From Antedon mediterranea (lineage: Eukaryota > Echinodermata > Crinoidea > Comatulida > Antedonidae): DNA of 64,000 nt. Numbering within the stretch: the stretch's first letter is position 1; every line of letters starts with the position of its first letter. Both the position numbers and the translations under genes were made by a program. The DNA lies in the NCBI RefSeq assembly GCF_964355755.1, contig NC_092674.1, positions 10,919,001 through 10,983,000 on the forward strand. Reading direction: 5' to 3'. Of the stretch, positions 14,804 through 60,925 are shown in pieces. The notes beneath the pieces were generated by a model, which did no database searches, was not told the origin of the DNA, and was given only the letters and a program-made list of their open reading frames with translations.

Positions 14804-16543
14804 TTATGGTATAACAACAGGTACCGGATCAGGGAGAGGCTCTGCTTTTTTGCCTATAACAAAAAAGGTCCGCATCGGTGCTTGTTTGCCTTTTACCGTT
14901 ACCTCACCCCTATACTTAAAGTCATACAAGTGATTAAGTTTCTCCACAGTTTCCTCTGCAACTTGAATATGCTTGGCCACACCAGTCGAATCCATACGGC
15001 TGGCGATGTTTACTGCATCGCCCCAGATATCATAAAAGAGCTTTGTTGTTCCAATTACACCAGAGTTAATGCTGCCATGGTGGAAACCGATACGCAGAAT
15101 AAACTCAAACGCTCCCATGGTCATGCTCAAGCTTTCGCTATTAAACGTTTCCACGCATTTCTGCATTTGCAAAGAAAAGTCCAGCAAGGTTTGAAGATGT
15201 TCGTACTTGAAAGTTCTTTCGTGTTCAGGTTTTGAAAAATGAAGTCCACACGCTGCCATGTACGTCGAGCCAATGGTCTTAATCTTTTCAACGTCTCTGA
15301 ATTGTTCTTTTTCTAAAAGCGCATCAAAGTCGCCAATCATTTCATTCAGAATACGAATACATTCGATACCGTCTGCAAATATCTCCGAGTAAAACTCGTT
15401 AAAGTTTATTATGCTTCCAAAAATGATTCCTACATTTTCATGGTTTTTAGAATATTTTGAAGAGGCCGTCTCCTTGAAGCTCTCGTACACAAACTTTGGA
15501 ACAATATTGTGTAGTAATTCTTCAGCCTTGTTTTTCTGTTCTTGAATCTTACCCTTGTCTTCGGCCGCTTGTACTCCTCCGTAGAAATTTAACCGAAAGC
15601 TGATTTCAAACTGACGGTTCAAGAGTAACACAAGAAGAACAAGGAGTAGAACAACAAGAATCAATTCTGGCATGCTACTGGTGTTGTTGTTGTTGTCATC
15701 TGGCATACTGGTAGAGTTTGTAAACAAGTCTGCACCCTCAGTGAACGTACATTGATCAATGCTAGATATAATGATAAGAGTGGCGCCACTCAACAGAGCC
15801 ATAATAGTCTTTGTCCAAGAACTTAATTGAATAAAGTTACAATAGTGCAGTAACGCAACTGTTGTTATAAAACAGTAGAATGGTTGCATCATCAGATCGT
15901 CCTTGTTGCATTGCACGTTAGAATAAACGGCAACGGATGGTAAACTAATTAACACTACTCCAAGAATATGGCGTGGATACCAACTATGAAAGAAACTGAC
16001 AAGGCGGGACGAACATCGCGATCTTGCTTTTAAAAAGAACGCTTCCTGTAGAACAGTTATAAATACACACAGTTGTAGTATTGTTCCAACGGCAAATACA
16101 ATTGCCCAATGCAGTTGCACGTCGAACACGAGGAAACATCCTATTGATGTGAATAAGTACACTAAAAAGCCTATGCCAACATCAAATAGTGTATTATATT
16201 TAGTTGTGGAGATCGTTTCACTTGAAAGACGTCTCGATGACGGTCGTTCTTGCGCTTCCATTTGCTGTTCGTCAATTACAGTGTCATCATTCAGTTGTGC
16301 GCGTAGGTTCCGTGGTTTGAACTGATCACGATACAATCTTTCAACACCACTTTCTTCAAAACTCAACATGCATAGATGAGTCGGCGCAGATTGTAGGTAT
16401 TCTGCGTTTACTTGCTTCATAAAACTAACCAGCCGCCGATCCTCAATCTCTTGCGCTTTTACCTTAGACTCTGTCGTCCTTTCTGAATTGCCTTCTTCAA
16501 CATCTGCTGGTGATAGGCCACCGTTCTCAGAGTGGGTTGTGAT
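14804..16543 (-). CDS. ADCY9: Adenylate cyclase 9, last exon: second membrane domain and C2 catalytic domain
   Basis: This exon supplies the C-terminal half of a class III transmembrane adenylate cyclase (ATP to cAMP, plasma membrane). Acceptor tctgttacag precedes 16543; stop TAA is at 14806-14804; 579 residues. Layout: cytoplasmic C1b end (1-115), six hydrophobic helices (about 118-310) with a glycosylatable loop (NSTS, NNTS), then C2 (about 370-565). The segment WYPRHILGVVLISLP...VAVYS...HYCNFIQLSSW closely matches vertebrate ADCY9. C2 keeps Lys422 (KIKTIG), Asp505 (DIWGD), Asn512 and Arg516 (NIASR) and the VKGK lysine, the ATP-binding and transition-state residues of mammalian C2. The protein ends about 12 residues after GKK, lacking most of the vertebrate AC9 C2b tail. 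An upstream in-frame ATG (16657) lies in the intron and is not used. Confidence 0.93.
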   Translation of the reverse strand: MTTHSENGGLSPADVEEGNSERTTESKVKAQEIEDRRLVSFMKQVNAEYLQSAPTHLCMLSFEESGVERLYRDQFKPRNLRAQLNDDTVIDEQQMEAQERPSSRRLSSETISTTKYNTLFDVGIGFLVYLFTSIGCFLVFDVQLHWAIVFAVGTILQLCVFITVLQEAFFLKARSRCSSRLVSFFHSWYPRHILGVVLISLPSVAVYSNVQCNKDDLMMQPFYCFITTVALLHYCNFIQLSSWTKTIMALLSGATLIIISSIDQCTFTEGADLFTNSTSMPDDNNNNTSSMPELILVVLLLVLLVLLLNRQFEISFRLNFYGGVQAAEDKGKIQEQKNKAEELLHNIVPKFVYESFKETASSKYSKNHENVGIIFGSIINFNEFYSEIFADGIECIRILNEMIGDFDALLEKEQFRDVEKIKTIGSTYMAACGLHFSKPEHERTFKYEHLQTLLDFSLQMQKCVETFNSESLSMTMGAFEFILRIGFHHGSINSGVIGTTKLFYDIWGDAVNIASRMDSTGVAKHIQVAEETVEKLNHLYDFKYRGEVTVKGKQAPMRTFFVIGKKAEPLPDPVPVVIP

Positions 16544-16889
16544 CTGTAACAGAGGCTGGATATTTTGAAAAGGAAGAGAGAAAGAGAACACATGTAAGAC
16601 AAGACACAACACAATGCCAGGCAAATTAACATGCAAATGACATGCAAAATGATTCATGATTCATGCAAATTAGATTTTAAAAGCTCCCAATCACCAAGAA
16701 GAAAATTTCTATTTAAACCAATTGAAGTGCGACCAACATTTATTTATTTATTTTTTTAATTTTCTAAAAATAATATTTTTAATTAAAATCTGTTCAAGTA
16801 CGTAGCCAGGAGATTTTGAGGACTTGAACTTTATTTATTCAATACTTTTAAATTTATAATGATTAGTGCAACAGTATGTTGTTATATAT

Positions 16890-22233: not shown

Positions 22234-25200
22234 CTACAGTGTGTAAAAGAACATGCAATAGTAGAAGTAGTATTAGTATATTTTGTGTCCAAGCTTAGAA
22301 CCATTAAACATAGCAATATGTATGTTTAGTATTAGTAACCAAAGTTGTCAGTAAAAAGTTTTAGTATTAAAACATCTCCAGTGCGACTATTCAAGGGACG
22401 GGGCTATTCAGGGGACGCCCCTATTCAGATGACTGTATGACACACCAATTTACGGGATGCTTTTCTATGAAGCAAACAAGGGGAAGTATGTTCCACACTA
22501 CAGGAAATCCATAAGCATTAAAATGAGTTTCGGCAGCAAGCTTTATATACCAAACACCAAACAAATAGTATGGCTTAAGCCTTATAGATCAGTTTGCATG
22601 AAAATTACTCTTTTGCTATTTGAACCTGTTTGTTGTTTATTTTTATGGAATACCAAGGATAACAAATGAGGAATAGACTTATTTCGGTTTTGTGTCTTTC
22701 GAGAAAATCCCCTTTAACATGCACATAGCTGTGGCAAATCCAGAAATGTTTTTGTGAGATGAGTGGGGTGGGGGGATGGGGTGGAGTTCTACCTTTTAGA
22801 TTGTATTTGTCAAAATTTAGGTGATGGTAGTTCCACCAATGCATAATAGTAGTAGCAGTTGTAGTATAGGTTGCAGTAATAGAGTTAACATCCATAGCAA
22901 TTATAATTGCAATAGTTATGCAATGATAGTAGCATTAATATTATTATTAGCAGTAACATTTCAAACAACAACATTTTATACAAAATACAACATATAAAAT
23001 CGACACAAACACCATAAAAAAGTGGGGCAATGCATGAGAAAGTAACTCTATTGATTAATTTAATTTCATTTTTATGCCAATGTTGACAGATGTCTGTCAA
23101 AAACACCTGAAGGGGACAAGGGGGTGTTACAACCGGGCGTGACGACAGCAGACTTACGGTCAAAGATCATCCTGCAATGCTGACTACTTGTCACAGTTGA
23201 CCGGTATAAGGGTGTTATATATATATATTTCTTTGACACCGACCTAATTTCAACGTTTTAAATTCTTCAATAGAAATTTATTTTAGAATCAGAAATTATT
23301 TATAATCTTGGCCAGTGTTTTCATGGAAAAGTGCAGTAATTTAATTATGTATAGGTTAGCATAAGTAGGAGTTTATTTAACATTAGTTTAAAAAAGTTAA
23401 ATTTAGTTTAGTTTAAGTTTAATTTAATTCTTGTTAGCAACATAATTAAACAGGGAACAAACCCACAAGCATAAGCTTATCAAACTAAATTGTACCCTTT
23501 TCACACAAACTTTGAAGGCCAATTTTTGTAAAGAATGTTGTGAGTTAGCATTCTGAGTATGAATTGAAGTCATCTCATTCTGAGTATGAACTGAAGTCAG
23601 CTCATTCTGAGTATGAATTGAAGTCATCTCATTCTGAGCATGAATTGAAGTCATCTCATTCTGAGTATGAATTGAAGTCATCTCATTCTGAGTATGAATT
23701 GAAGTCAGCTCATTCTGAGTATGAATTAAAGTCAGCTCATTCTGAGTATGAATTGAAGTCAGCTCATTCTGAGTATGAATTGAAGTCAGCTCATTCTGAG
23801 CATGAATTGAAGTCATCTCATTCTGAGTATGAATTGAAGTCAGCTCATTCTGAATATGAATTGAAGTCAGCTAATTCTGAGTAATAATTAAAGTCAGCTC
23901 ATTCCGAGTCTGAATTGAAGTCAGCTCATTCTGAGTCTGAATTGAAGTCGGTTCATTCTGAGTATGAATTAAAGTCAGACCATTCTGAGTATGAATTGAA
24001 GTCAGCTCATTCTGTGTCTAAATTGAAGTCAGCTTATTTTGAGTATGAAATTAAAGTCAGCTCATTCTGAACATGAATTGAGGTCAGCTCATTCTGAGTA
24101 TGAATTGAAGTCAGCTCATTCTGAGAATAAATTGAAGTCAGCTCATTCTGAGAATGAATTGATGTCAGCTCATTCTGAGTCTGAATTTAAGTCATCTCAT
24201 TCTGAATATGAATTGAAGTCAGCTAATTCTGAGTAATAATTAAAGTCAGCTCATTCCGAGTCTGAATTGAAGTCAGCTCATTCTGAGTCTGAATTGAAGT
24301 CGGTTCATTCTGAGTATGAATTAAAGTCAGACCATTCTGAGTATGAATTGAAGTCAGGTCATTCTGTGTCTAAATTGAAGTCAGCTTATTTTGAGTATGA
24401 AATTAAAGTCAGCTCATTCTGAACATGAATTGAGGTCAGCTCATTCTGAGTATGAATTGAAGTCAGCTCATTCTGAGAATAAATTGAAGTCAGCTCATTC
24501 TGAGAATGAATTGATGTCAGCTCATTCTGAGTCTGAATTTAAGTCATCTCATTCTGAGTCTGAATTGAAGTCATCTCATTCTGAGCATGACTTGAAGTCA
24601 TCTCATTCTGTGTCTGAACTGAAGTCAGCTCATTCCGAGTCTGAACTGAAGTCAGCTCATTTTGAGAATGAATTGAAGTCAGCTCATTCTGAGAATGAAT
24701 TGAAGTCAGCTCATTCTGAGAATAAATTGAAGTCAGCTCATTCTGAGTCTGAATTGAAGTCAGCTCATTCTGAGTCTGAATTGAAGTCAGCTCATTCTGA
24801 GCATGACTTGAAGTCAGCTCATTCTGTGTCTGAACTGAAGTCAGCTCATTCCGAGTCTGAATTGAAGTCAGCTCATTCTGAGTTTGAATTGAAGTCAGCT
24901 CATTCTGAGTCTGAATTGGAATTGAAGCCCGCTCATAGTCTGAATTAAATTCAGCTCATTCTGAGAATGAATTGAAGACAGCTCATTCTGAGTTTGGATT
25001 CAAGCCAGCTCATTCTGAGTCTGAATTAAAGTCAGACCATTCTGAGTATGAATTGAAGCCATCTCATTCTGTGTCTAAATTGAAGTCAGCTTATTTTGAG
25101 TATGAAATTAAAGTCAGCTCATTCTGAACATGAATTGAGGTCAGCTCATTCTGAGTATGAATTGAAGTCAGCTCATTCTGAGAATAAATTGAAGTCAGCT

Positions 25201-25862
25201 CATTCTGAGAATGAATTGATGTCAGCTCATTCTGAGTCTGAATTTAAGTCATCTCATTCTGAGTCTGAATTGAAGTCATCTCATTCTGAGCATGACTTGA
25301 AGTCATCTCATTCTGTGTCTGAACTGAAGTCAGCTCATTCCGAGTCTGAACTGAAGTCAGCTCATTTCGAGTCTGAACTGAAGTCAGCTCATTCTGAGAA
25401 TGAATTGAAGTCAGCTCATTTTGAGAATGAATTGAAGTCAGCTCATTCTGAGAATGAATTGAAGTCAGCTCATTCTGAGTCTGAATTGAAGTCAGCTCAT
25501 TCTGAGTCTGAATTGAAGTCAGCTCATTCTGAGCATGACTTGAAGTCAGCTCATTATGTGTCTGAACTGAAGTCAGCTCATTTCGAGTCTGAATTGAAGT
25601 CAGCTCATTCTGAGTTTGAATTGAAGTCAGCTCATTCTGAGTTTGAATTGAAGTCAGCTCATTCTGAGTCTGAATTGAAGCCCGCTCATAGTCTGAATTA
25701 AATTCAGCTCATTCTGAGAATGAATTGAAGAAAGCTCATTCTGAGTTTGGATTCAAGCCAGCTCATTCTGAGTCTGAATTGAAGTCATCTCATTCTAAGC
25801 ATGAATTGAATTCATCTCATTCTGAGCACGAATTCAAGTCAGCCTTCAATTCTTTACTGTAC
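22234..25862 (-). other. ADCY9 intron largely filled by the 27-bp minisatellite
   Basis: Intron between the two C1b exons (GT at 25862-25861, AG at 22235-22234, minus strand). The array at 23548-25842 takes up nearly two thirds of it and ends about 20 bp from the splice donor. The part 22380-22440 has a remnant of a GGGGACG-type transposon end. The part 22840-22980 has TAGTAGCAG/ATAATAAT-like low complexity. Confidence 0.75.
23548..25842. repeat. 27-bp minisatellite, about 85 copies, with higher-order structure
   Basis: The unit is 27 bp (nine codons) and, read on plus, spells ELKSAHSE followed by Tyr, Ser, His or Asn. Because 27 is a multiple of three and the unit lacks stops in one frame on each strand, it yields open frames on both strands (plus up to 201 codons at 25096-25701; minus 130 codons at 23424-23816). 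These are repeat by-products, not supported genes. A block beginning with the same 50-60 codons recurs at 24039, 24391 and 25096 (spacings 352 and 705), showing segmental duplication inside the array. Blocks carry a 1-nt insertion that shifts frame. Confidence 0.9.
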
Positions 25863-31195: not shown

Positions 31196-32920
31196 CTTTA
31201 TAAAGTAAACTAACATTAATAATAATTAATTAGAATATTAAATTAAAATACAAAAATACATACAGTTGGCTTATTCACAATTCATACACGTTTAAACATT
31301 TTTTTATTAAAGTGAATACTTGAGGAAATCCTTAAACATTGATGGACATACAGTAGTATTAAGGAATGGAAAATGTCTGTGCACCTATAAGTACAATTGT
31401 TGAATACAGCTACTAGCTCAGACTACCTTTTCATACAAACAGTTCAAAAGCCATTAGGGCACAAAGTTGTTGGCAACATGCATTATTAAACTCAGCTGAC
31501 TAGGTTTCTTTATCAATATCATAATATCTATAGCCATTAATTAGGTTAAAAAGTCATGAGTTCCAAGTCATGCGTTAAAACCACAGCTTGTTTTAATCAT
31601 CCAAGACACTCAAAAAAGCAAATGAATGCTTTCCTCTTTCTTAAAAAACTAAGCCACGTGGGATGTTTGAGGCTTGTAAGTGAGAAGAAATAATGGGCTT
31701 GAAGCAACCAATAATACATATATTTAACACTAATGCCCACTAGTATTTTTTTTTCAACATACATCCAACATAAGCATATGACAGGATGGAAAGAAACCCA
31801 TACTCAAATGACATAGTGATATTAATATTAACCATGAAAAAATCATGGTATTTTGACATGATTTGAACCCAAATCCCTAGAATTGCTAAACAAGCAATGG
31901 TGGTGCCACTACACCTACCTTAAGGAAGCTTTTTTCATAATCTTTGTTAATTGCAACATCCATATACATGGTATCGATATGACAAAAGTTGTACTGGTTT
32001 AAACTACACTACACAAAAAAACCACTCAAAGGAAGGGGTGGAGAACTGCCATGGAGCAAATATATATACATGTTCTTTATGCCGAACACAGTAGTAGCAA
32101 ACGTTCTGAAGGTTTAATACTGAAATAACATTGCATAATGAATAATATTAATGCTCTTTTATATTGGTGTTGGCAGAAAACAAGGGAATAACAATATCAT
32201 TGCGCCCTCTATACACAAGTTCATACTGACAACTTTTACATATGGACTCCCAAATTTGGTTGACTTGTCTCTAGTAATAACAAAAACTTACAAAAAAAAT
32301 GTTAATGCTTGCTTGTTATTCAAAATTCATATCAATGGCCATTATTACTAATTAAGATTTAACAACTCTTCTACACATCCTTCATTCAAAATTTAAAACA
32401 CATTTTTTAGGTATAATATTCTTAAATTCAATAAAGTAAGAAAGATTGATGATTCACAATGTTAGTACAAGAAGCATTGAAAGAAAAGAAAAATTAAATA
32501 AATGTTTAGCAATCACCTTGAAGAGACGATTATAATAAATAAAATCAACTGAATGTAAAATCTTAATTGAATTCAAACTAATCAAATTATTATATTTAAA
32601 AAATCAGTATAGTGTAATTGCATGTCAGCCTTGAACGAAGATGCTATTTTAGAACTGTGATAAACTATTTATATAACACTTGGTTTTATTAGCGCCTCAC
32701 AAAGGAAACAATTATAACTTGCAATACATTTGAAACCAAAACTATAAGGCAATGCTATAAATAGCTAATACAGATACCCTGGAGAATTGTAGACATTAAT
32801 TCCTGCTTTACATTTCAACAATAAGCTGGATTCTAGGGCAGCCTCTACGACGATCTATTGTTAAATATGTCAGCATTGTTAAGTAGTTTATTAGCTTACT
32901 TAGGCTACCAAGTGTAAAGC
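31196..32920. other. Unassigned intronic DNA with a tRNA-like SINE scrap
   Basis: On the minus strand, about 31850-31925 reads TAGTGGCACCACCATTG ... GGGTTCAAATC, a box A/box B pair typical of a tRNA-derived SINE head. The rest is AT-rich with no gene. Confidence 0.45.
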
Positions 32921-33450
32921 TACAGTTAGCTTTTCTGTGCTACAGTTAGCTTTTCTGTGCTACAGTTAGCTTTTCTGTGCTACAGTTAGCTTTTCTGTGC
33001 TACAGTTAGCTTTTCTGTGCTACAGTTAGCTTTTCTGTGCTACAGTTAGCTTTTCTGTGCTACAGTTAGCTTTTCTGTGCTACAGTTAGCTTTTCTGTGC
33101 TACAGTTAGCTTTTCTGTGCTACAGTTAGCTTTTCTGTGCTACAGTTAGCTTTTCTGTGCTACAGTTAGCTTTTCTGTGCTACAGTTAGCTTTTCTGTGC
33201 TACAGTTAGCTTTTCTGTGCTACAGTTAGCTTTTCTGTGCTACAGTTAGCTTTTCTGTGCTACAGTTAGCTTTTCTGTGCTACAGTTAGCTTTTCTGTGC
33301 TACAGTTAGCTTTTCTGTGCTACAGTTAGCTTGTCTGTGCTACAGTTAGGTTGTCTGTGCTACAGTTAGGTTGTCTGTGCTACAGTTAGGTTGTCTGTGC
33401 TACAGTTAGCTTGTCTGTGCTACAGTTAGCTTGTCTGTGCTACAGTTAGC
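32921..33450. repeat. 20-bp minisatellite, 26.5 copies, 20 of them identical
   Basis: Unit TACAGTTAGCTTTTCTGTGC. The first 20 units (32921-33320) are identical; the last six carry TTGT and, in part, TAGG variants. A single stray unit-like word occurs at about 33752. The uniformity points to recent expansion or strong homogenisation. Confidence 0.97.
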
Positions 33451-33907
33451 TATGTTAGTTGTTGCCGAGTTTTAAATTTTAAATGAAGGGTATGTAGAAG
33501 AGTTTCTAAATATTAATTTGTTTATAACAATAGCCATTGATATGAACTTTGGATAAAAAAAGGTTTTTTATCAATCTTTCTGCACATTGTGCACATGTAT
33601 CTTAGCATGAGCAGGTTTGACACTGATTTGTCGTAGGTTGCCCACAATTTTAGGCCAAATCATAATTTTTTTTCTATTTGTTATAGTATAGTATTTCCGT
33701 ACATCCAAAATTTCTGTAGTAATTGTCGGTGTTTTATAGAACTTGAGAAGCCTACAGTTAGCTTGTATTTAATTAAGTAAGCTTGTCGAGCTATCAGTTG
33801 TATGAACACGATGTCACATTTATTTATCTGCTTTTTAATAGATTTAAATTTAAACGTAAATATCACCATTATCATTCCTTAGATACATAACTTTATTTTT
33901 ACCTTAA

Positions 33908-43792: not shown

Positions 43793-44146
43793 TTAACAAC
43801 ATCATGAAAACACAATAAAAAATTACCCTTTTACTTGATTGAAGCTGGCTTGTTTTAAGCTAAATTATTTCAATAAATTGAAATTGAAATAAAACAGACA
43901 GAAAGTAAGTAAGTAAGTAACTGTATTGACAAACACTTTTGGATCAGTGGCAACACACTCATTAGTGGTGCAGTCAACTTAGACTACATACAAATAAACA
44001 TTATAAACCAAACATGTATGTATGTACACTCAACGATACATGTATGTATGTACACTCAACGATGATATTCAAATCTTAACAATGAATTTGGTTTATTGCA
44101 ATAATTGTTGTATAGTACTGTAGAATAGAACATCCGTCTGTCTCGA

Positions 44147-44903
44147 GAGACAATGATGTGTACCTTGGAAGGACCTCAACGGCCGACAGACAATGATGTG
44201 TACCTTGGAAGGACCTCAATGGCCGACAGACAATGATGTGTACCTTGGAAGGACCTCAATGGCCGACAGACAATGATGTGTACCTTGGAAGGACCTCAAT
44301 GGCTGACAGACAATGATGTGTACCTTGGAAGGACCTCAATGGCCGACAGACAATGATGTGCACCTTGGAAGGACCTCAGTGGCCGACAGACAATGATGTG
44401 CACCTTGGAAGGACCTCAGTGGCCGACAGACAATGATGTGCACCTTGGAAGGACCTCAGTGGCCGACAGACAATGATGTGCACCTTGGAAGGACCTCAGT
44501 GGCCGACAGACAATGATGTGCACCTTGGAAGGACCTCAGTGGCCGACAGACAATGATGTGCACCTTGGAAGGACCTCAGTGGCCGACAGACAATGATGTG
44601 CACCTTGGAAGGACCTCAATGGCCGACAGACAATGATGTGCACCTTGGAAGGACCTCAATGGCCGACAGACAATGATGTGCACCTTGGAAGGACCTCAAT
44701 GGCCGACAGACAATGATGTGCACCTTGGAAGGACCTCAATGGCCAATAGACAATGATGTGCACCTTGGAAGGACCTCAATGGCCGACAGACAATGATGTG
44801 CACCTTGGAAGGACCTCAATGGCCGACAGACAATGATGTGCACCTTGGAAGGACCTCAATGGCCGACAGACAATGATGTGCACCTTGGAAGGACCTCAAT
44901 GGC
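44147..44903. repeat. 40-bp minisatellite, about 19 copies
   Basis: Unit GACAATGATGTGTACC followed by TTGGAAGGACCTCAATGGCC and GACA. Variants are in blocks: GTGTACC in the first five units, GTGCACC afterwards, and CTCAGT confined to a middle run of about seven units. This indicates local duplication of neighbouring units. Confidence 0.95.
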
Positions 44904-48877: not shown

Positions 48878-49201
48878 GACACCTCTATTAATGGGACACC
48901 TCTATTAATGGGACACCTCTATTAATGGGACACCTCTATTAAGGGGACACCTCTATTAAGGGGACATCTGTATTAAGAGGAAATCTGTATTAAGGGACAC
49001 CTCTATTAAGGAGACACCTCTATTAAGGAGACACCTCTATTAAGGGGACACCTCTATTAAGAGGAAATCTCTATTAAGAGGACACCTCTATTAAGGGGAC
49101 ACCTCTATTAAGAAAACACCTCTATTAAGGGGACACCTCTATTAAAAAGACACCTCTATTATTATTAAGGGGTCACCTCTATTAAGAGGAAATCTCTATA
49201 A
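48878..49201. repeat. 17-bp minisatellite CTCTATTAAGGGGACAC, left part
   Basis: About 18-20 units of CTCTATTAAGGGGACAC with variants (AATGGGAC, AAGAGGAAAT, AAGAAGAC). Each unit contains TTAA. The array is interrupted by the MITE at 49202 and resumes at 49540. Confidence 0.93.
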
Positions 49202-49539
49202 AGATGTATTTTCCCCCTGAAAAAATAATTCTTAAAAAAATTTTTGTTGAATATTCCATTTTAATGTAACATAATAGTTATCCACTTTGACCAAAAATTT
49301 GATCGAAGAAAAATGTATTTACCTGACAAAAAATGTAATTTAAAGGAAAAATGGTCAAATTGGCTGCCAGCCAATGGATTTTCGGTTGAATTTAACCATT
49401 TATTTTGTCATATTATAAGTATAATAATAAGTTTTTTTTTCTATGGAAGTGATTAACTTTATTAAAACTACAAAATAACATATTCAAATTCTGATTTAAT
49501 TAATCTTCATTTTTCATGTTTTTGGGGGACAATACATCT
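49202..49539. mobile_element. TTAA MITE (AGATGTATTGTCCC family), copy 2, inside a minisatellite
   Basis: Left end AGATGTATTTTCCCCC, right end GGGGGACAATACATCT. The right flank is TTAA (49540-49543); the left equivalent is ATAA, one change from TTAA. Both flanks belong to the 17-bp array, so the element used a unit's TTAA as its target. Shares internal sequence (GTGATTAACTTTATTAAAAC, CCAATGGATTTT) with copies at 52470 and 62244. Confidence 0.85.
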
Positions 49540-52836: not shown

Positions 52837-53740
52837 GACATCCATTCCAATGTACAATCTTCTACAGTACTGTATGTGACATCCATTCCAATGTACAATC
52901 TTCTACAGTACTGTATGTGACATCCATTCCAATGTACAATCTTCTACAGTACTGTATGTGACATCCATTCCAATGTACAATCTTCTACAGTACTGTATGT
53001 GACATGCATTCCAATGTACAATCTTCTACAGTACTGTATGTGACATCCATTCCAATGTACAATCTTCTACAGTACTGTATGTGACATGCATTCCAATGTA
53101 CAATCTTCTACAGTACTGTATGTGACATCCATTCCAATGTACAATCTTCTACAGTACTGTATGTGACATGCATTCCAATGTACAATCTTCTACAGTACTG
53201 TATGTGACATCCATTCCAATGTACAATCTTCTACAGTACTGTATGTGACATGCATTCCAATGTACAATCTTCTACAGTACTGTATGTGACATCCATTCCA
53301 ATGTACAATCTTCTACAGTACTGTATGTGACATCCATTCCAATGTACAATCTTCTACAGTACTGTATGTGACATGCATTCCAATGTACAATCTTCTACAG
53401 TACTGTATGTGACATCCATTCCAATGTACAATCTTCTACAGTACTGTATGTGACATCCATTCCAATGTACAATCTTCTACAGTACTGTATGTGACATGCA
53501 TTCCAATGTACAATCTTCTACAGTACTGTATGTGAGATCCATTCCAATGTACAATCTTCTACAGTACTGTATGTGACATCCATTCCAATGTACAATCTTC
53601 TACAGTACTGTATGTGACATCCATTCCAATGTACAATCTTCTACAGTACTGTATGTGACATCCATTCCAATGTACAATCTTCTACAGTACTGTATGCGAC
53701 ATGCATTCCAATGTACAATCTTCTACAGTACTGTATGTGA
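52837..53740. repeat. 41-bp minisatellite, 22 copies, with internal palindrome
   Basis: Unit GACATCCATTCCAATG then TACAATCTTCTACAGTACTG and TATGT. It contains the 12-bp palindrome TACAGTACTGTA. The only frequent variant is CATCCAT/CATGCAT, alternating irregularly. The 65-codon frame at its start is a by-product. Confidence 0.97.
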
Positions 53741-55654
53741 GATCGCTGCCTGATCAAAGACCGCTCCTTTTACAACTATAAACCTTAATCAAATATAATA
53801 TAGCACGATACTCGTTATAGTATAATACCTAAAGATTTAAGTAAACTTTATTGTCAAATTATAGTAATCTGAAATTTGTTTTACTCATGGCAACAGTAAA
53901 ATTTACATAAAATACAGATAAATATTGAATGTATTAATTACAACTGGTTTGTTAATGTGACCAAATTATAATGTAAGGTAAAGTTTATAGCAATGTAGAT
54001 AATTAATTTGATATTATTACTAAAACTGAAACTAAGGTGACTGACCGGTTGATACATTTTAATAGATCCTATGACTGTAACACATTATGTACACAGCTAT
54101 AATAAGGACTTATTAGATTATGTGAACGTGCACACGACGGTCTTGTCCACATGGGTCATAGTCGACTGTTACTCGTCGACAGTAAGTGGACATTTACGTT
54201 GACGTGCCAGAAAACATGTAATGTAATGACCGTGGGACGTACTTGTAATCTCCATAGTAGTACTCGTCCATGGCCCAGCCCGGTGAAAGTACACAGGCTT
54301 AGGTCAGGCTGTAGCTTGGGCCTAGCCTAGATCCTTAATTTTCAGACCCAGGCCATACCTGTATTATTAAAAGTTTTATTGATGATGAATATGAAATTAA
54401 AAAAAAAAACACAAAAAATGAATAACAAGTTAGAAATAACTTGTTGAGGCTGGGCGCGGCCGAGCCTAGGACTTGTAGATATAACAATATATTATTACAA
54501 TATATTGATAACAATTTTAAAAAAACATTGTTTTGATGAAATATAAAGTGCGTCTTATACATCGACGATATAAAAAATACCGATATTTTACTCTCAGTTA
54601 GGGGGTGCGTCTACTCTTATACACAGGTGCGACTTATACATCGAAATATACGGTAGGTACTGTTAAATAACTACAGTAGAAGAAGTTAAGAACTAGTTTA
54701 CAGTAGAAGAAACAGGGCCTTAAAGATTATTTAATTTTACTCATAACTCCCTATCGGACTGATAAGCCTTTCACATAACAATCTCGTTGCCTGACAATAA
54801 ATAATATTGGGAAACTTCCAAAACTACCCTATCCTATTGATAATGTTATTATGAAACTACTTAACACAGTTAAATCCCATAACATAGAGAAAAAACAAAG
54901 GCTTTGATATCTGATGAAATCAAATCTTAATCTCAGTTGATTCAAATTGTCTATGAATATTTTGCTTTTTTTTATTTCAAGCATCTACTGTATAAAGAGG
55001 GTAACCCTTCCAGTTTTACCAGGTAGGTTAACAATTATCCAGGGGCCCTATTGATTAATAAATTAAGAATACATTCAACAAATTACAATATCACATAGAG
55101 TACAATATAAACAATAACAACCCTGGCATAGTCTTAAGGGTATAAAAAAATTGAATAATTACATTTTAATTTTAATAAAGAACTTTTGTTTAAAATTCAA
55201 ATAACAAATGCATTATTTATGGCAATACATTAATGTATCCTTTTTACTTCTTATGCGCATAATATTCAATAATACAAATGCAAATCATATATTAAGTACG
55301 ATAGTTCTATAAATAGAATACTATTGGAATTACTTATACAAAAATGAAATAACTACTACAGTATGTAGTCACTGTTTTATGTTGAATAATGTATAGCAGG
55401 ATTCGTATATGGAATAGAATATTTGTAATGAAATTTGGCTACAAAATTCAAGCATTTGAAAATGACATCCAATTTTTACATTGTTGATATTTTTTAGTAT
55501 ATCTCGCTCTTCGAGGAGAAATATGGCATTTATCGGTTTATCCAGGTAAGCTAGGCACGTAATAGACTACGAATTACAGATATTTTTGATAGTGTAAAGT
55601 GTATACTACTTAATTTCAAATTTAAATACAACTTTAAGTACAGAAGAATAAAAG
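53741..55654. other. Unassigned DNA left of the Kolobok-type element
   Basis: Holds a GC-richer patch at 54120-54330 with a 25-codon minus-strand frame (start 54271) of no known family. At 54545-54655 repeated GTGCG(T/A)CTTATACA motifs resemble a transposon end. No exon is supported. Confidence 0.4.
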
Positions 55655-55701
55655 AACCCTTATTTAAGGGACACCCTTATTTAAGGGACACCACTATTTA
55701 A
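55655..55701. repeat. Left fragment of the TATTTAAGGGACACC minisatellite
   Basis: Three units (CCTTATTTAAGGGACAC) ending in CACTATTTAA, whose TTAA (55698-55701) is the left target duplication of the transposon. The rest of the array is at 60438-60925. Confidence 0.9.
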
Positions 55702-55877
55702 AGTGCTAGTGCCACACTTTCGACAAATACGACATTTACTATTATCAGTATCAAGAATAATATATGTAGATACTGTGTTAAATTGAGTTTCAATAATAAA
55801 GTGTTATATATATGAAAAAAAAAGCAATATGTGTGTCGTTATTTGGTCACGAAATGTTACCTTTCGACATTTGTATG

Positions 55878-55885
55878 TGACGTCA
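55878..55885 (+). promoter_or_regulatory. CRE palindrome TGACGTCA in the left subterminal region
   Basis: Perfect CREB/ATF site 99 bp before the P2X7-like start codon and 176 bp from the left end. A TTATAA word follows at about 55937. A matching site lies in the right subterminal region. It may serve as a promoter element or as a subterminal protein-binding site. Confidence 0.6.
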
Positions 55886-55983
55886 CAGCCAGAACACCGA
55901 CGATCGCGAGGAGGAACTAACCTGCATCTTGCGCCTTATAACACACCCCGCGGCGATCACAACAAGCTTACTGAATATTTGTT

Positions 55984-56192
55984 ATGGATTCCGAAAGCGA
56001 TTTAGAAAGTGTTTCATCAGATAGACCAAGTAGTAGTAGTTCATCATCAAGTGATGAGGAAAATGGTACTGGCCTTATAATACCATATAATTTCGAACCA
56101 CGTTTTGAGGAACATGAATTACAAGACATTGATGAAGAAGCCCAAGGTGAAGATGTTGACATGATGGCTGCACGCCTGGATAATTTAGAATG
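55984..56192 (+). CDS. Kolobok-element P2X7-tail-like protein, exon 1
   Basis: First of two exons of a 209-aa protein. It encodes 69 codons plus 2 nt. MDSESDLESVSS is followed by a Ser tract, DEENGTG, then an acidic stretch (EEHELQDIDEEAQGEDVD) and MMAARLDNLEW. The donor GAATG|gtaggt splits the Trp codon (phase 2). The N-terminus looks disordered and acidic and I recognise no domain. The start codon is the first ATG after the candidate TTATAA. The gene lies wholly within the transposon and converges with the transposase gene. Confidence 0.88.
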
Positions 56193-56619
56193 GTAGGTGT
56201 TCCCCCGTTGTGGTTGTTGTAGTGAAGCGTCTGCTTGATTGGGCTAGGCCTAATTAATCAATCGAAGCTAGAGCTACCTCAGTGTTTCTAAATTCTAAAT
56301 ATACAATCGGTTTTTTTTTCAAATTTTGTGAGATGCCATACGTTAATATAAAGTCCCCATCGTAATTTGTTTGATGATTATTATTAGATGGGTCGGATTT
56401 GGGACGGTGGTTTAATAATAATAGGCTACTCCTTGCTTGGCTTGGGTTTGGTTATAATAATAGATGGACTAGGCCTAAAGTATTAATATTAATATTCTGG
56501 TCATAGTTCAAATGGGCATTTGAATTTCACTTGATTGAGTGACTGCTGATATGATCAACTAATTATAATCATAATAATTAATTTTATAATGACTAAATAC
56601 ATGTTTTCATCTTGTTCAG

Positions 56620-57040
56620 GTGTTCCTGTGAACATTGCCAAATCATGGGCTCAGGGGAAGAGTGCATCTGCTGCAAGGAGTGCGAAAACACAAGTGCTAA
56701 ACTTGAAGACAATGTCAATCTGTTCAACAATGATGCTCCATTCTCCTGCATCACAAATCATCCAGGTTTCAAGTCTGTTGCTCTTGACCCTTGGGTGCTG
56801 GAAGTAGCATGGCTTTCGTATAAGCAACACTATGATAAGAAAGTTATCTATAACGGACCAAAAAACAAAAAGTACCGTCACATATCGTACAGACAGTATG
56901 CCCGATGGATACATGGATATGTCGGAAAAAATATCCGTATAGTGCTTCCGTCTTGTGTTGTCTCTTGCATAAGAGCACATTTCCCACCACCTGGAGATGA
57001 CCCAGTGTTTACAGGATTTAAATTACCCGACCTAAATTAA
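56620..57040 (+). CDS. Kolobok-element P2X7-tail-like protein, exon 2 (ballast-type zinc domain)
   Basis: Acceptor cttgttcag precedes 56620; 139 residues after the split Trp, stop at 57038-57040. It encodes WCSCEHC ... EECICCKEC, then SCITNHPGF..., YRHISYRQYARWIHG, LPSCVVSCIRAHFP and FTGFKLPD. This order matches the C-terminal cytoplasmic ballast domain of P2X7: CxCxxC, CC, ITxSELF, AYRxYxxW, LPSCCRWRIRxxFP, GFKxP. That domain binds a dinuclear zinc cluster and guanine nucleotide in P2X7. No P2X channel segments are present, so this is a soluble protein carrying only the domain. The intron sits exactly at the domain boundary. AATAAA follows at 57108-57113. Its role in transposition is unknown. 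Confidence 0.9.
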
Positions 57041-57320
57041 AACAGCCATAGCAGCATTTTAATTTTCTTATACTATTTAGTATTAGGTTAATAATTTTTT
57101 GAAATTAAATAAAGTACAGTAATAATTTATACAATTTGCAACTCATTTTGATTTTATTGCTTCTCTCACTCATATACATCTCCAATACATTGTTATTGGG
57201 GAAAAAATGAAATAGTCTGAAAATACAGTACATTGTGGATATTTCAACAATTTTATTATGTCTACAATAATATGCTGTGTTCAATTCATTTATATGATTA
57301 ATAAACATGGTGTCAAGTTA
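57041..57320. terminator. Shared 3' region of the two convergent transposon genes
   Basis: Plus-strand AATAAA at 57108-57113 serves the P2X7-like gene. TTTATT at 57153-57158 gives AATAAA on the minus strand, 163 nt past the transposase stop. The two transcripts therefore end almost back to back. Confidence 0.6.
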
Positions 57321-59133
57321 TTACTGGTTTTTAAACCGGCTTGTATGTTGGGCAACTGCAGCACTTTTTTCAGGTCTTTCAAATGCTGCGCACAATGATG
57401 GTGGTATGGTCTCTGTAAATGCATCTAGATTTGGTTCCATAACAACCTCAAGAAGACTCTTGAACAACTCATCAACATAATTATATGTACATTCTGTTAA
57501 AAGTTTTTTAACAATGTAACCCCCTTTCTTGTACTTGGGAAATGATATTACGTATTGCTTTTCTCCAGCCTTATTTACCATTTGTTCTCTGGTACTGTTC
57601 TCATTATAGTGAAGAGCAGCTATGAAAAGTCGACTCTTCATTCCACTATATGAAAAGTGGAACATTTTAGGAGCGAAATGATTAATAAGGCTATGGTACC
57701 CTTCCACTGATGACGTTTGCCCATGAGGTGAAGAATTGCGAATGTCCTTCACCAACATTTTGGTTTCAACAAATTTTTGTAAGGCATCACAAGCTTCAGT
57801 ATCAGCAGTCAACCACTTTGTTAACCGTTGGTCTGAAGGAGACATTACCGGATGGGCACATTCCGTATATGGTTCAGGATGTCCAGTATGAAGATTTTGT
57901 ACATGTCTTACCACAGACTTCCACTTTGCTTCAATGATATCTTTTTCATCAATGTTGGTGGACATTACACACCAGTAATAATGGTTAGAAATAGATTTTT
58001 GCCAATTACCTAAAAGGTTACACGATTTTTTTGTTGATATGGCCTGGATCTTTTTCTTAATACTTTTTGCAATGTGCCAGCAGTCAAAATAATGCTTAAT
58101 GTCTGGAAAATTATCCCTTAAATATTTTTGTAGTTGTCTATGTCTATCGGAAACAATTGTACTTATATTTACTTTGAAATCTTTAAAGACATCCAATGTT
58201 TTTTGTAGACCCTTAAGTTCCATATGATAAGATGATTTAACATCACTACTCTGAACTAATTCAACATTCAAAATCTTATTTTCGGTCAAGTCAACTGATG
58301 TGTATGAACCATATTTTGCACTGTGGCCCATACTGTCACAGCGTCCATCTACGCCAATAGAAATATCCTTGCCCTGTAATTCAGCAAAGTGCTTATCCCT
58401 TTTAGAAAACCAATTATTCCTTACAACTCTGTGCAAGAAATTTTGTTGGTGACGGAAAAAAGTACGTTTACTAATGGCGCTCACATTTATACTTTTTAGC
58501 GCTCTTAAAAATTGTGTGGGTGTTGAGCCAGAAAAAAGAATAGCCCCACTTAGTAGAATGTTACCCATTGGGGTACCTCTAGCTTCTGGCTGACTTTTCC
58601 ACTCGCGGTTAGTGTGGCAACATAAGCATCTTATGTTTGCAATAAGCATGCTTCCCTTGTTACGACAACATACTTGAACTTTACTGGAAAAACAGGAAAG
58701 GCATATAGAAAGTAGCATCAGTAGGTGATTGTGAAAAACAATGTATTTTGGCTGTCTATGTGCATCCCCATTAAATCCTTTCATCTCATCATCTTCCATC
58801 TCTGTATCCTCACCATCTGAAACCGATACATCCTCTTCCGGTCGATAATCTGAATCGCTATCATCTTCTGTCGACTCATCAAAATCTTCATCATCTTCAT
58901 CAGACGATTGTTCTTTGTATGTTGGTTTGGCTTTTTTGGGTGCCACGACTTTAGCTTTGCTCATTTTTCGTCGCCGAACACGTTTTCTTTGCTTTCGTGT
59001 CTGTGTGCCTCTGGACACCATAAGAGGCTTATCGCATACACTTGCCAGCTCCTGTTCATCCTCTTCCTCATCCTCTGTTCCAGTAATAAGCTCCCTGATC
59101 ACTCCCGCCTTTTCTCTTTTAACAAATGCTGAC
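57321..59133 (-). CDS. Kolobok-type THAP-DDE transposase, exon 3 (catalytic)
   Basis: The largest exon of a 708-aa transposase; residues 106-708. Acceptor ttccaacag precedes 59133; stop TAA at 57323-57321. Order: basic cluster (RKQRKRVRRRK), acidic stretch (SSDEDDEDFDESTEDDSDSD), a Cys-rich zinc-type segment (LSICLSC ... CLCCHTN, about 247-280), then the RNase H-like core. Candidate catalytic residues are Asp367 (GVDGRCDS), Asp434 (VSDRHRQ) and Glu582 (SVEGYHS), with the D-x-x-H motif DCWH at 455-458 between the second Asp and the Glu. This D-D-(D/C)xxH-E layout is known for Kolobok and related superfamilies. The frame is uninterrupted over 1.8 kb. Confidence 0.92.
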
Positions 59134-59223
59134 CTGTTGGAATGAATATTAATACTATTAATAAATAAATATCAGACAAACCTAAACATTTTTTCTTTTA
59201 TTTATTGAATCTATTACACTAAC

Positions 59224-59322
59224 CTCTGTGCTGTACACTCTTTGGCCACCTGACCACCATCGTCGGATGTCTCCCTCACAACATGTATTGTTGGTACCGC
59301 TGTTTTGGCATTCAGTAAAAGC
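59224..59322 (-). CDS. Kolobok-type transposase, exon 2 (end of THAP domain)
   Basis: A 99-nt exon (1 + 96 + 2 nt) between acceptor acttttag (AG at 59324-59323) and donor CAGAG|gttagt (59223-59222). It encodes LLLNAKTAVPTIHVVRETSD ..., whose AVPTI is the C-terminal signature of the THAP domain (AVPTIF). Phases fit exons 1 and 3. Too short to appear as a long open frame. Confidence 0.88.
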
Positions 59323-59881
59323 CTAAAAGTAGTGAGGAAACCGTTGTCTAGTTAATATTAAGGGCAAAATAACGTAAGCAATATAATTATAATATAGTTG
59401 TTAGTTCCCACTTACACCGACAGGACATTCTCCTACTGAGCATAATAGTGTAGGCATTGACTAACCTCCATCATGTTTGTACAGCATTCAGTAGTACTAA
59501 TTAGGCCTGGCTAGGCTAGCCCTTATCCCATTATTATTAATGTAATAAGCCAAATACATAACAACTAGGTTAGGCCTAGTTGAGTTATCTGTGTGGTGTA
59601 GGCAAAACTGTTACTATTACTTATTAATTATGTTAAGTTTATTTAAAGATAAACCAACATAAAGTAAATACTATACATATATATCAGGCGGAGCAACTGT
59701 ACTCTGTATGTATGTACAGTAGTTTTAATGTTACTGCAAATTATGTGCCGGCGCGCCTAGAAGCTAGGCTTGGCCCAGCGGGCCCAGCAGGCCTAACAAT
59801 AGCGACGGCGAACGTATTTTATGCAGTTTTTGTTGAAGGTAAAATATTAAAAGTAAATTCATCTAATTAACAAATACTTAC

Positions 59882-60096
59882 TTTGTAGCTAGACCAGCTT
59901 TGAATTGACCCATGTTTGTAAATGAATCGTCTGAAAAATGCTTAAAACAGAGCACTGATCGAGCTGTGGGTTTCCATTTATCGCGTTTTGTACGTACAAA
60001 TCGCGTCCATTGCCTGGCGATGGAACTGTCCTTTGGCCACCGAAACAATAAGTTATTTTCATGATCACAATTCGCAGCAACACAGCGAGAAGGCAT
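59882..60096 (-). CDS. Kolobok-type transposase, exon 1 (THAP zinc finger)
   Basis: Start ATG at 60096-60094; donor ACAAA|gtaagt at 59881-59880; 71 codons plus 2 nt. It encodes a THAP-type C2CH finger: Cys5-x4-Cys10, Trp30, Pro43, Cys50-x2-His53 and Phe59. The THAP domain binds DNA and in transposases usually recognises element ends. Without splicing the frame would end at a TAA that begins in the donor (GTAAG), so the splice is needed. Confidence 0.92.
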
Positions 60097-60268
60097 ATTG
60101 ATTTATTATAATAGATAAATAAAAAAGTAGCTGACAATAATAATAGTTGAAAATAACAATTAGTACCAGTAGAAAGCAGTATACAGTATATATTATTAGT
60201 AGTAAACCAGCGTCTCATGCATGCACGTGTGTTGTTTTAAAAGGCGGAAGTAGAATGTCTTCTGCCTG

Positions 60269-60276
60269 TGACGTCA
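60269..60276 (-). promoter_or_regulatory. CRE palindrome TGACGTCA in the right subterminal region
   Basis: Perfect CREB/ATF site 173 bp upstream of the transposase start and 161 bp from the right end, mirroring the left one. A TTATAA-containing word (60280-60286) lies just beyond it. Confidence 0.6.
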
Positions 60277-60437
60277 CGCTTATAAAGTACGAGGGCATAT
60301 TAACGTTCCTAATTAAGAGGCGATTACGGCCATACCGTTAAAAGTAGGTCAATGCAAATTTCGGTCAAGATTTATAGACATTAAGTCTACCCAAAAAATC
60401 ATTAATATCTTAATTTAAAGGCTGTGGCACTAGCACT

Positions 60438-60925
60438 TTAAGGGACATCCCTATTTAAGGGACACCCCTATTTAAGAGACACCCCTATTTAAGGGACACC
60501 CCTATTTAAGGGACACCCCTATTTAAGGGACACCCACTAGTTAAGAGACACCCCTATTTAAGGGACACCTCTATTTAAGGGACACCCCTATTTAAGGGAC
60601 ACCCCTATTTAAGAGACACCCCTATTTAAAGGACACCTCTATTATGCATGCATTTCTTTAATCATGGACCATTTGTAAGAACATTATTTTTAATGAAAAT
60701 ATCATCCATGTAAAATACGTTTGCAAATAAATAAGGGACACCCATATTTAAGGGACACCCATATTTAAGGGACACCACTATTTAAGGGACATCCCTATTT
60801 AAGGGACACCCCTATTTAAGGGACACCCCTATTTAAGGGACATCCCTTGTATTTAAGGAACATCCCTCTTTAAGGGACACCCCTATTTAAGGGACAGCCC
60901 TATTTAAGGGACATTCCCATTATTT
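60438..60925. repeat. Right part of the TATTTAAGGGACACC minisatellite
   Basis: About 25 units of 17 bp, CCCTATTTAAGGGACAC, each with TTAA, interrupted by about 85 bp of other sequence at 60650-60735. Continues the array begun at 55655 before the transposon insertion. Confidence 0.93.

Follow-up and report, generated by a model that had tools for sequence, protein, structure and literature searches.

An apparently intact and autonomous Kolobok transposon of the Kol0 group, encoding a THAP-DDE transposase and a convergently oriented KolX protein with a C-terminal P2X7 ballast domain, very probably (roughly 0.9) accounts for a 4,744-base TTAA-to-TTAA unit in the genome of the crinoid Antedon mediterranea. 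The unit spans positions 55698-60441 of the window, namely the whole 64,000-nucleotide stretch of DNA analyzed here. The first-pass annotation had described a TTAA-bounded element with terminal inverted repeats, carrying a THAP-DDE transposase and a spliced gene of P2X7 ballast type, and this description is confirmed by the element ends, the gene models, Pfam profiles and fold comparison (table 1). The features that place the element among Koloboks are the 4-bp TTAA target duplication, the RR...YY termini, a DDE core with a DxxH motif, the residues of an H2CH finger and a THAP domain, the latter being usual in the Kolobok superfamily (PMC6004289). The encoded KolX with its ballast fold, rather than the position of the transposase in a tree, is the basis for assignment to Kol0. 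Both KolX and the proposed derivation of the P2X7 tail from it were published in 2022 (Kojima and Bao 2022, PMC9587614), and the element is therefore a new example, not a new discovery. The present analysis adds the anatomy of a crinoid member and the empty site restored in register, and it points to an intron that is probably conserved, to an N-terminal motif seen in several relatives and to a candidate inverted repeat inside the ends.

Table 1. Features of the element and its flanks (window positions)
Feature	Position	Strand	Basis or remark
Left flank: 17-bp minisatellite with TTAA in its unit (target site)	55656..55701	.	Repeat analysis and flank joining
Left terminus: TTAA target duplication plus 15-bp terminal inverted repeat AGTGCTAGTGCCACA	55698..55716	+	Matches 60423-60441 in inverted orientation without mismatch
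Possible subterminal inverted repeat, left copy, with TGACGTCA palindrome	55877..55897	+	19/21 to 60257-60277; putative role
KolX exon 1: 69 codons plus 2 nt	55984..56192	+	Acidic, Ser-rich N-terminus with IIPYNFEP
KolX phase-2 intron, splitting the Trp codon TG|G before CxCxxC	56193..56619	+	Spliced reading frame
KolX exon 2: P2X7 ballast-type zinc domain and stop codon	56620..57040	+	Profile, fold, alignment
Transposase exon 3: DDE catalytic core and stop	57321..59133	-	Alignment, fold
Transposase exon 2: includes AVPTI box of THAP	59224..59322	-	Agrees with annotated P0121
Transposase exon 1: THAP zinc finger	59882..60096	-	Spliced model and Pfam
Possible subterminal inverted repeat, right copy	60257..60277	-	19/21 to 55877-55897
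Right terminus: 15-bp terminal inverted repeat plus TTAA	60423..60441	-	Inverted match to left terminus
Right flank: 17-bp minisatellite as in left flank, register kept across the insertion	60437..60913	.	Repeat analysis and flank joining

Anatomy of the Element and Its Insertion Site

The ends of the element are identical inverted repeats, matching at 18 of 18 positions in a pattern search (two such matches were held by 0 of 100 shuffled sequences) and over 19 nt, TTAA plus 15 bp, in a repeat search. Inside the TTAAs the termini read AG...CT, which fits the 5'-RR...YY-3' rule given for Kolobok elements (PMC9587614). The minisatellite unit on the right side is TTTAAGGGACACCCCTA, and when the flanks are joined via a single TTAA the repeat continues in register, each of the five units examined around the junction matching at 16-17 of 17 positions; this in-register empty site marks a clean insertion with TTAA duplication. 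The two copies of the 21-bp subterminal repeat, both containing TGACGTCA, lie 179 and 164 bases inward of the element ends, but can be taken as suggestive only, since another 21-nt pair within the element reaches 86%. Both genes lie wholly between the inverted ends. The annotated KolX and transposase of A. mediterranea each differ by one residue from the proteins of the window and reside on contigs of different size, which suggests that the element has more than one recent copy; alternatively, the single-residue changes could reflect differences between alleles or species.

Elsewhere in the window, an array of the unit GACACCTCTATTAAGGG at 48878-49203 looks related to the TTAA-bearing minisatellite entered by the transposon, and arrays of this kind present many potential TTAA targets. 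Very homogeneous tandem arrays (97-99% matches; periods of 20, 40 and 41 bp) occupy positions 32919-33451, 44144-44903 and 52837-53744. A further repeat, with 85 copies of 27 bp at 23549-25843, has long open stretches on either strand, which translate into repeats of nine residues of the SAHSENELK and TSIHTQNEL types, and is probably a non-coding minisatellite. Two exons lie on the minus strand about 13 kb apart, one for the TAZ1 domain of CREB-binding protein (1121-1474; PDB match with E=3.5e-33) and the other for adenylate cyclase type 9 (14804-16660; E=5.5e-126). CREBBP and ADCY9 adjoin in the human genome too, and the order of these genes may thus be old and conserved.

The Transposase

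The spliced transposase has 708 residues and an N-terminal THAP domain recognized by Pfam (PF05485, E=5.4e-10). Its DDE triad is formed by D367, D434 and E582, with the DxxH motif at D455-H458 between the second D and the E, and all these residues are invariant in the 43 aligned rows. A candidate zinc finger lies between DxxH and the final E (H515, H520, C530 and H532, assigned by residues only), of which the three histidines are present in 43/43 and the cysteine in 42/43 of the same rows. No Pfam DDE family scored above its cut-off with this protein, MULE reaching 22.0 against the required 27.6 bits. In structure comparisons the transposase matches the fold of ISCth4 and Hermes by VIA-align, while the match to the P element transposase was obtained with Foldseek only, no P element chain being present among the best 50 VIA-align matches listed.

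KolX and the Ballast Domain

KolX of the window is a protein of 209 residues in which the product of exon 1 is strongly acidic, with 21 D/E versus 3 K/R among 69 residues, and is followed by a domain matching the Pfam profile P2RX7_C (PF20478; E=4.3e-11, 43.5 bits versus a curated cut-off of 23.5) along profile positions 81-192 of 192 only. A Pfam scan of both exons gave P2RX7_C alone, and thus the P2X core is absent from this protein. Comparison of the domain with the P2X7 structure, a check proposed by the first-pass annotation, found a match between the KolX model and the P2X7 fold; Foldseek taken alone returned E=1.1e-3 with a TM score below 0.4.

The alignment equates seven cysteines of KolX (C71, C73, C76, C87, C88, C113 and C182) with the zinc ligands C477, C479, C482, C498, C499, C506 and C572 of rat P2X7. 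In an alignment of 120 relatives, these positions are conserved in 39/40, 40/40, 39/40, 102/107, 104/107, 111/114 and 113/115 rows, respectively (95-100%), the denominators being the rows that cover each position. Of the five residues contacting guanine nucleotide in rat P2X7, namely R546, H547, R574, R578 and K583 (Rump et al. 2020, PMC7016195), three are retained in window KolX as R156, H157 and R188, and their equivalents are present in 105/114, 103/113 and 107/115 relatives (91-93%). The equivalent of R574 is V184, a valine shared by 110/115 relatives, and K583 has no equivalent in window KolX. Similar partial conservation of the contacts has been reported for sea urchin and acorn worm (PMC7016195).

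The N-terminal region contains a recurrent motif with core Y/F-x-F/Y/G-E/D-P, typically [IV]xPYxFEP, which a loose pattern used without a chance control found in window KolX and 14 of the 120 relatives, most of the 120 rows having no N-terminus in which it could be sought. It is absent from P0119 and P0120, both of which have long N-termini. It may be a docking motif.

Relatives and Distribution of KolX

Named relatives of KolX include proteins of a sea anemone, a nemertean and a hemichordate at 41-46% identity and of tick and frog at 30-32%, while metagenomic relatives reach 64%. Three relatives from a sea anemone and two ticks (P0029, P0110 and P0112) carry the public name 'P2X purinoceptor 7(-like)' and look like KolX-type proteins; with 194-205 residues they are too short for a channel, and the label is thus probably a misannotation. 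In viral and prokaryotic contigs, 26 and 12 matches, respectively, to one short pattern for each set, in scans that were not exhaustive, yielded 0 confirmed ballast domains, and a structure search returned no viral fold match to KolX at E<=0.001.

The 120 KolX rows and 118 transposase rows have three contig sizes in common, equal size not being proof of a single contig: 3,377 bases (both JGI), 13,990,091 (Ptychodera flava) and 27,379,721 (Tubulanus polymorphus, with two transposases). Close linkage would be implied by the 3,377-base contig only, because those of Ptychodera (14.0 Mb) and Tubulanus (27.4 Mb) are too long. The earlier idea that the domain belongs to an accessory protein of Kolobok-type elements gains support from these shared sizes, together with the spread of relatives across animals.

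Origin of the P2X7 Tail

KolX, the accessory protein of Kol0 elements, has been identified with the ballast domain of P2X7, showing clear similarity to residues 476-595 of the human receptor, and P2X7 has been proposed to be a fusion of a P2X4-like gene with KolX (Kojima and Bao 2022, PMC9587614); this article is the sole match for KolX together with Kolobok among the open-access full texts searched. The occurrence of the domain across animals, including stand-alone ballast proteins, had been described previously by Rump et al. (2020), the text of which (PMC7016195) has 0 occurrences of 'transpos' and makes no mention of transposons. Our own tree, built by a quick method, contained 106 rows and 140 columns, drawn from 124 gathered sequences (120 KolX matches, the window protein and 3 P2X7) after dropping 13 rows with fewer than 105 residues and 5 without P[SA]C. 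It groups P2X7 with the frog row P0120 and row P0119 at 73% SH-aLRT on long branches, and thus gives no placement of P2X7 among KolX proteins. The suggestion of the first-pass annotation that the P2X7 tail came from a transposon therefore agrees with what is in print, but gains nothing from this tree.

The association of KolX with the transposon could be questioned in two ways. The first description of stand-alone ballast proteins treated them as products of ordinary metazoan genes, some with conserved linkage (PMC7016195), and KolX might accordingly be a host gene picked up by this particular transposon instead of a standing gene of its family. However, its position wholly between the inverted ends and convergent with the transposase, the description of Kol0 families as KolX-encoding (PMC9587614) and the contig size of 3,377 bases shared by a KolX-like and a transposase-like protein render this very improbable. 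Somewhat less remote, yet still unlikely, is the opposite direction of transfer, in which a ballast gene already present in animals would have been taken up by Koloboks, and the tail of P2X7 would derive from a host gene instead of a transposon. The lack of resolution in the KolX/P2X7 tree leaves room for this, as does the argument that ballast genes were ancestrally linked to two markers throughout the invertebrates (PMC7016195); but the two markers may themselves be genes of the element, and the distribution of Kol0 among vertebrates, annelids, cnidarians and sponges (PMC9587614) fits an old association of KolX with these transposons.

A third question is how KolX would have joined the receptor. 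The first-pass annotation had supposed that the phase-2 intron at the edge of the domain made exon capture easy, whereby P2X7 would have acquired exon 2 of KolX by splicing. The edge of the domain is indeed where the intron lies, and judging from the protein sequences this intron, in the form that splits TG|G, is probably widely shared among KolX genes. A strict pattern around CxCxxC fits 31 of the 120 relatives, with Trp as the preceding residue in 14 and Arg in 17 (P0009, with Arg, and P0017, with Trp, fit by eye and were left uncounted). Translation continuing through a phase-2 intron whose last two bases are AG, with G as the next base, would yield the codon AGG, and the Arg is thus probably a mark of read-through. 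The Trp rows comprise 10 NCBI gene models and 4 unnamed sequences, whereas the Arg rows are all unnamed sequences, in which the residues before Arg vary from row to row except within sets of close relatives; because of such sets (P0038/P0040/P0041/P0046 and P0049/P0061), the 17 do not count as independent. Against capture at this point stands the structure of P2X7 itself. Its last exon, exon 13, codes for 170 residues (PMC7016195), which puts its start near residue 426, some 51 residues upstream of C477; P2X7 has no intron at the Trp, and retains in its consensus PxWCxCx2C (PMC7016195) the very residue whose codon is split in KolX. The phase-2 intron as a point of exon capture is thus rejected as the simplest reading, and we consider this route very unlikely; the same observations favor capture of an intron-less KolX, or later loss of the intron.

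Possible Function and Significance

By analogy with its family, the THAP finger of the transposase would bind the element ends and the DDE core would cut and join at TTAA. KolX would be a small partner that binds zinc, and possibly guanine nucleotide, through its ballast domain and contacts the transposase or the end complex through its acidic N-terminus. An ancient KolX gene would then have fused to a P2X4-like gene to produce P2X7, as already published (PMC9587614). A function as cofactor, in the pairing of ends or in strand transfer, is suggested by the zinc-built helical fold, by the guanine-nucleotide site of P2X7 and by the dependence of the P element transposase on GTP (PMC7776569). KolX could in this respect be a trans-acting, zinc-stabilized guanine-nucleotide subunit of the Kolobok transposase, paralleling the built-in GTP-binding domain of the P element enzyme. 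We regard this as quite doubtful, a judgment strengthened by the loss of two of the five nucleotide contacts in KolX and by the statement that P transposase is unique among transposases in its use of GTP (PMC7776569). If it were true, the cytoplasmic tail of P2X7 would be the inherited nucleotide sensor of a transposition cofactor.

The element serves to illustrate how a transposon could have supplied the tail of a vertebrate immune receptor and, being apparently intact, is offered for testing the function of KolX. It provides a clear specimen, and the position of its intron constrains the proposed fusion by arguing against simple exon capture; a new principle is not introduced, the link itself having been published in 2022.

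Comparison with Known Systems

The element resembles the Kol0 Koloboks described earlier (PMC9587614) in its TTAA target, RR..YY ends, DDE core with DxxH and a zinc finger before the E, and ballast-fold KolX, and differs from them in its crinoid host, which lies outside the groups named for Kol0; the KolX intron, N-terminal motif and subterminal repeat found here have no mention in the part of that article available to us. With the ballast domain of P2X7 (PF20478), KolX shares the fold, the seven zinc cysteines and the equivalents of R546, H547 and R578, but it lacks the P2X core and the equivalents of R574 and K583, and has a longer spacer between CC and CIT as well as an acidic N-terminus. 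The stand-alone ballast proteins Nanor and ZCD (Rump et al. 2020, PMC7016195) are likewise short, with the domain at the C-terminus, whereas KolX here sits within an apparently intact transposon; Nanor is considered a likely domesticated KolX by Kojima and Bao (PMC9587614). The P element (PMC7776569) is similar in having a THAP-DDE transposase that our Foldseek comparison matched, together with subterminal inverted repeats, but it generates 8-bp duplications instead of TTAA, and its GTP-binding domain is part of the transposase, whereas KolX is a separate protein.
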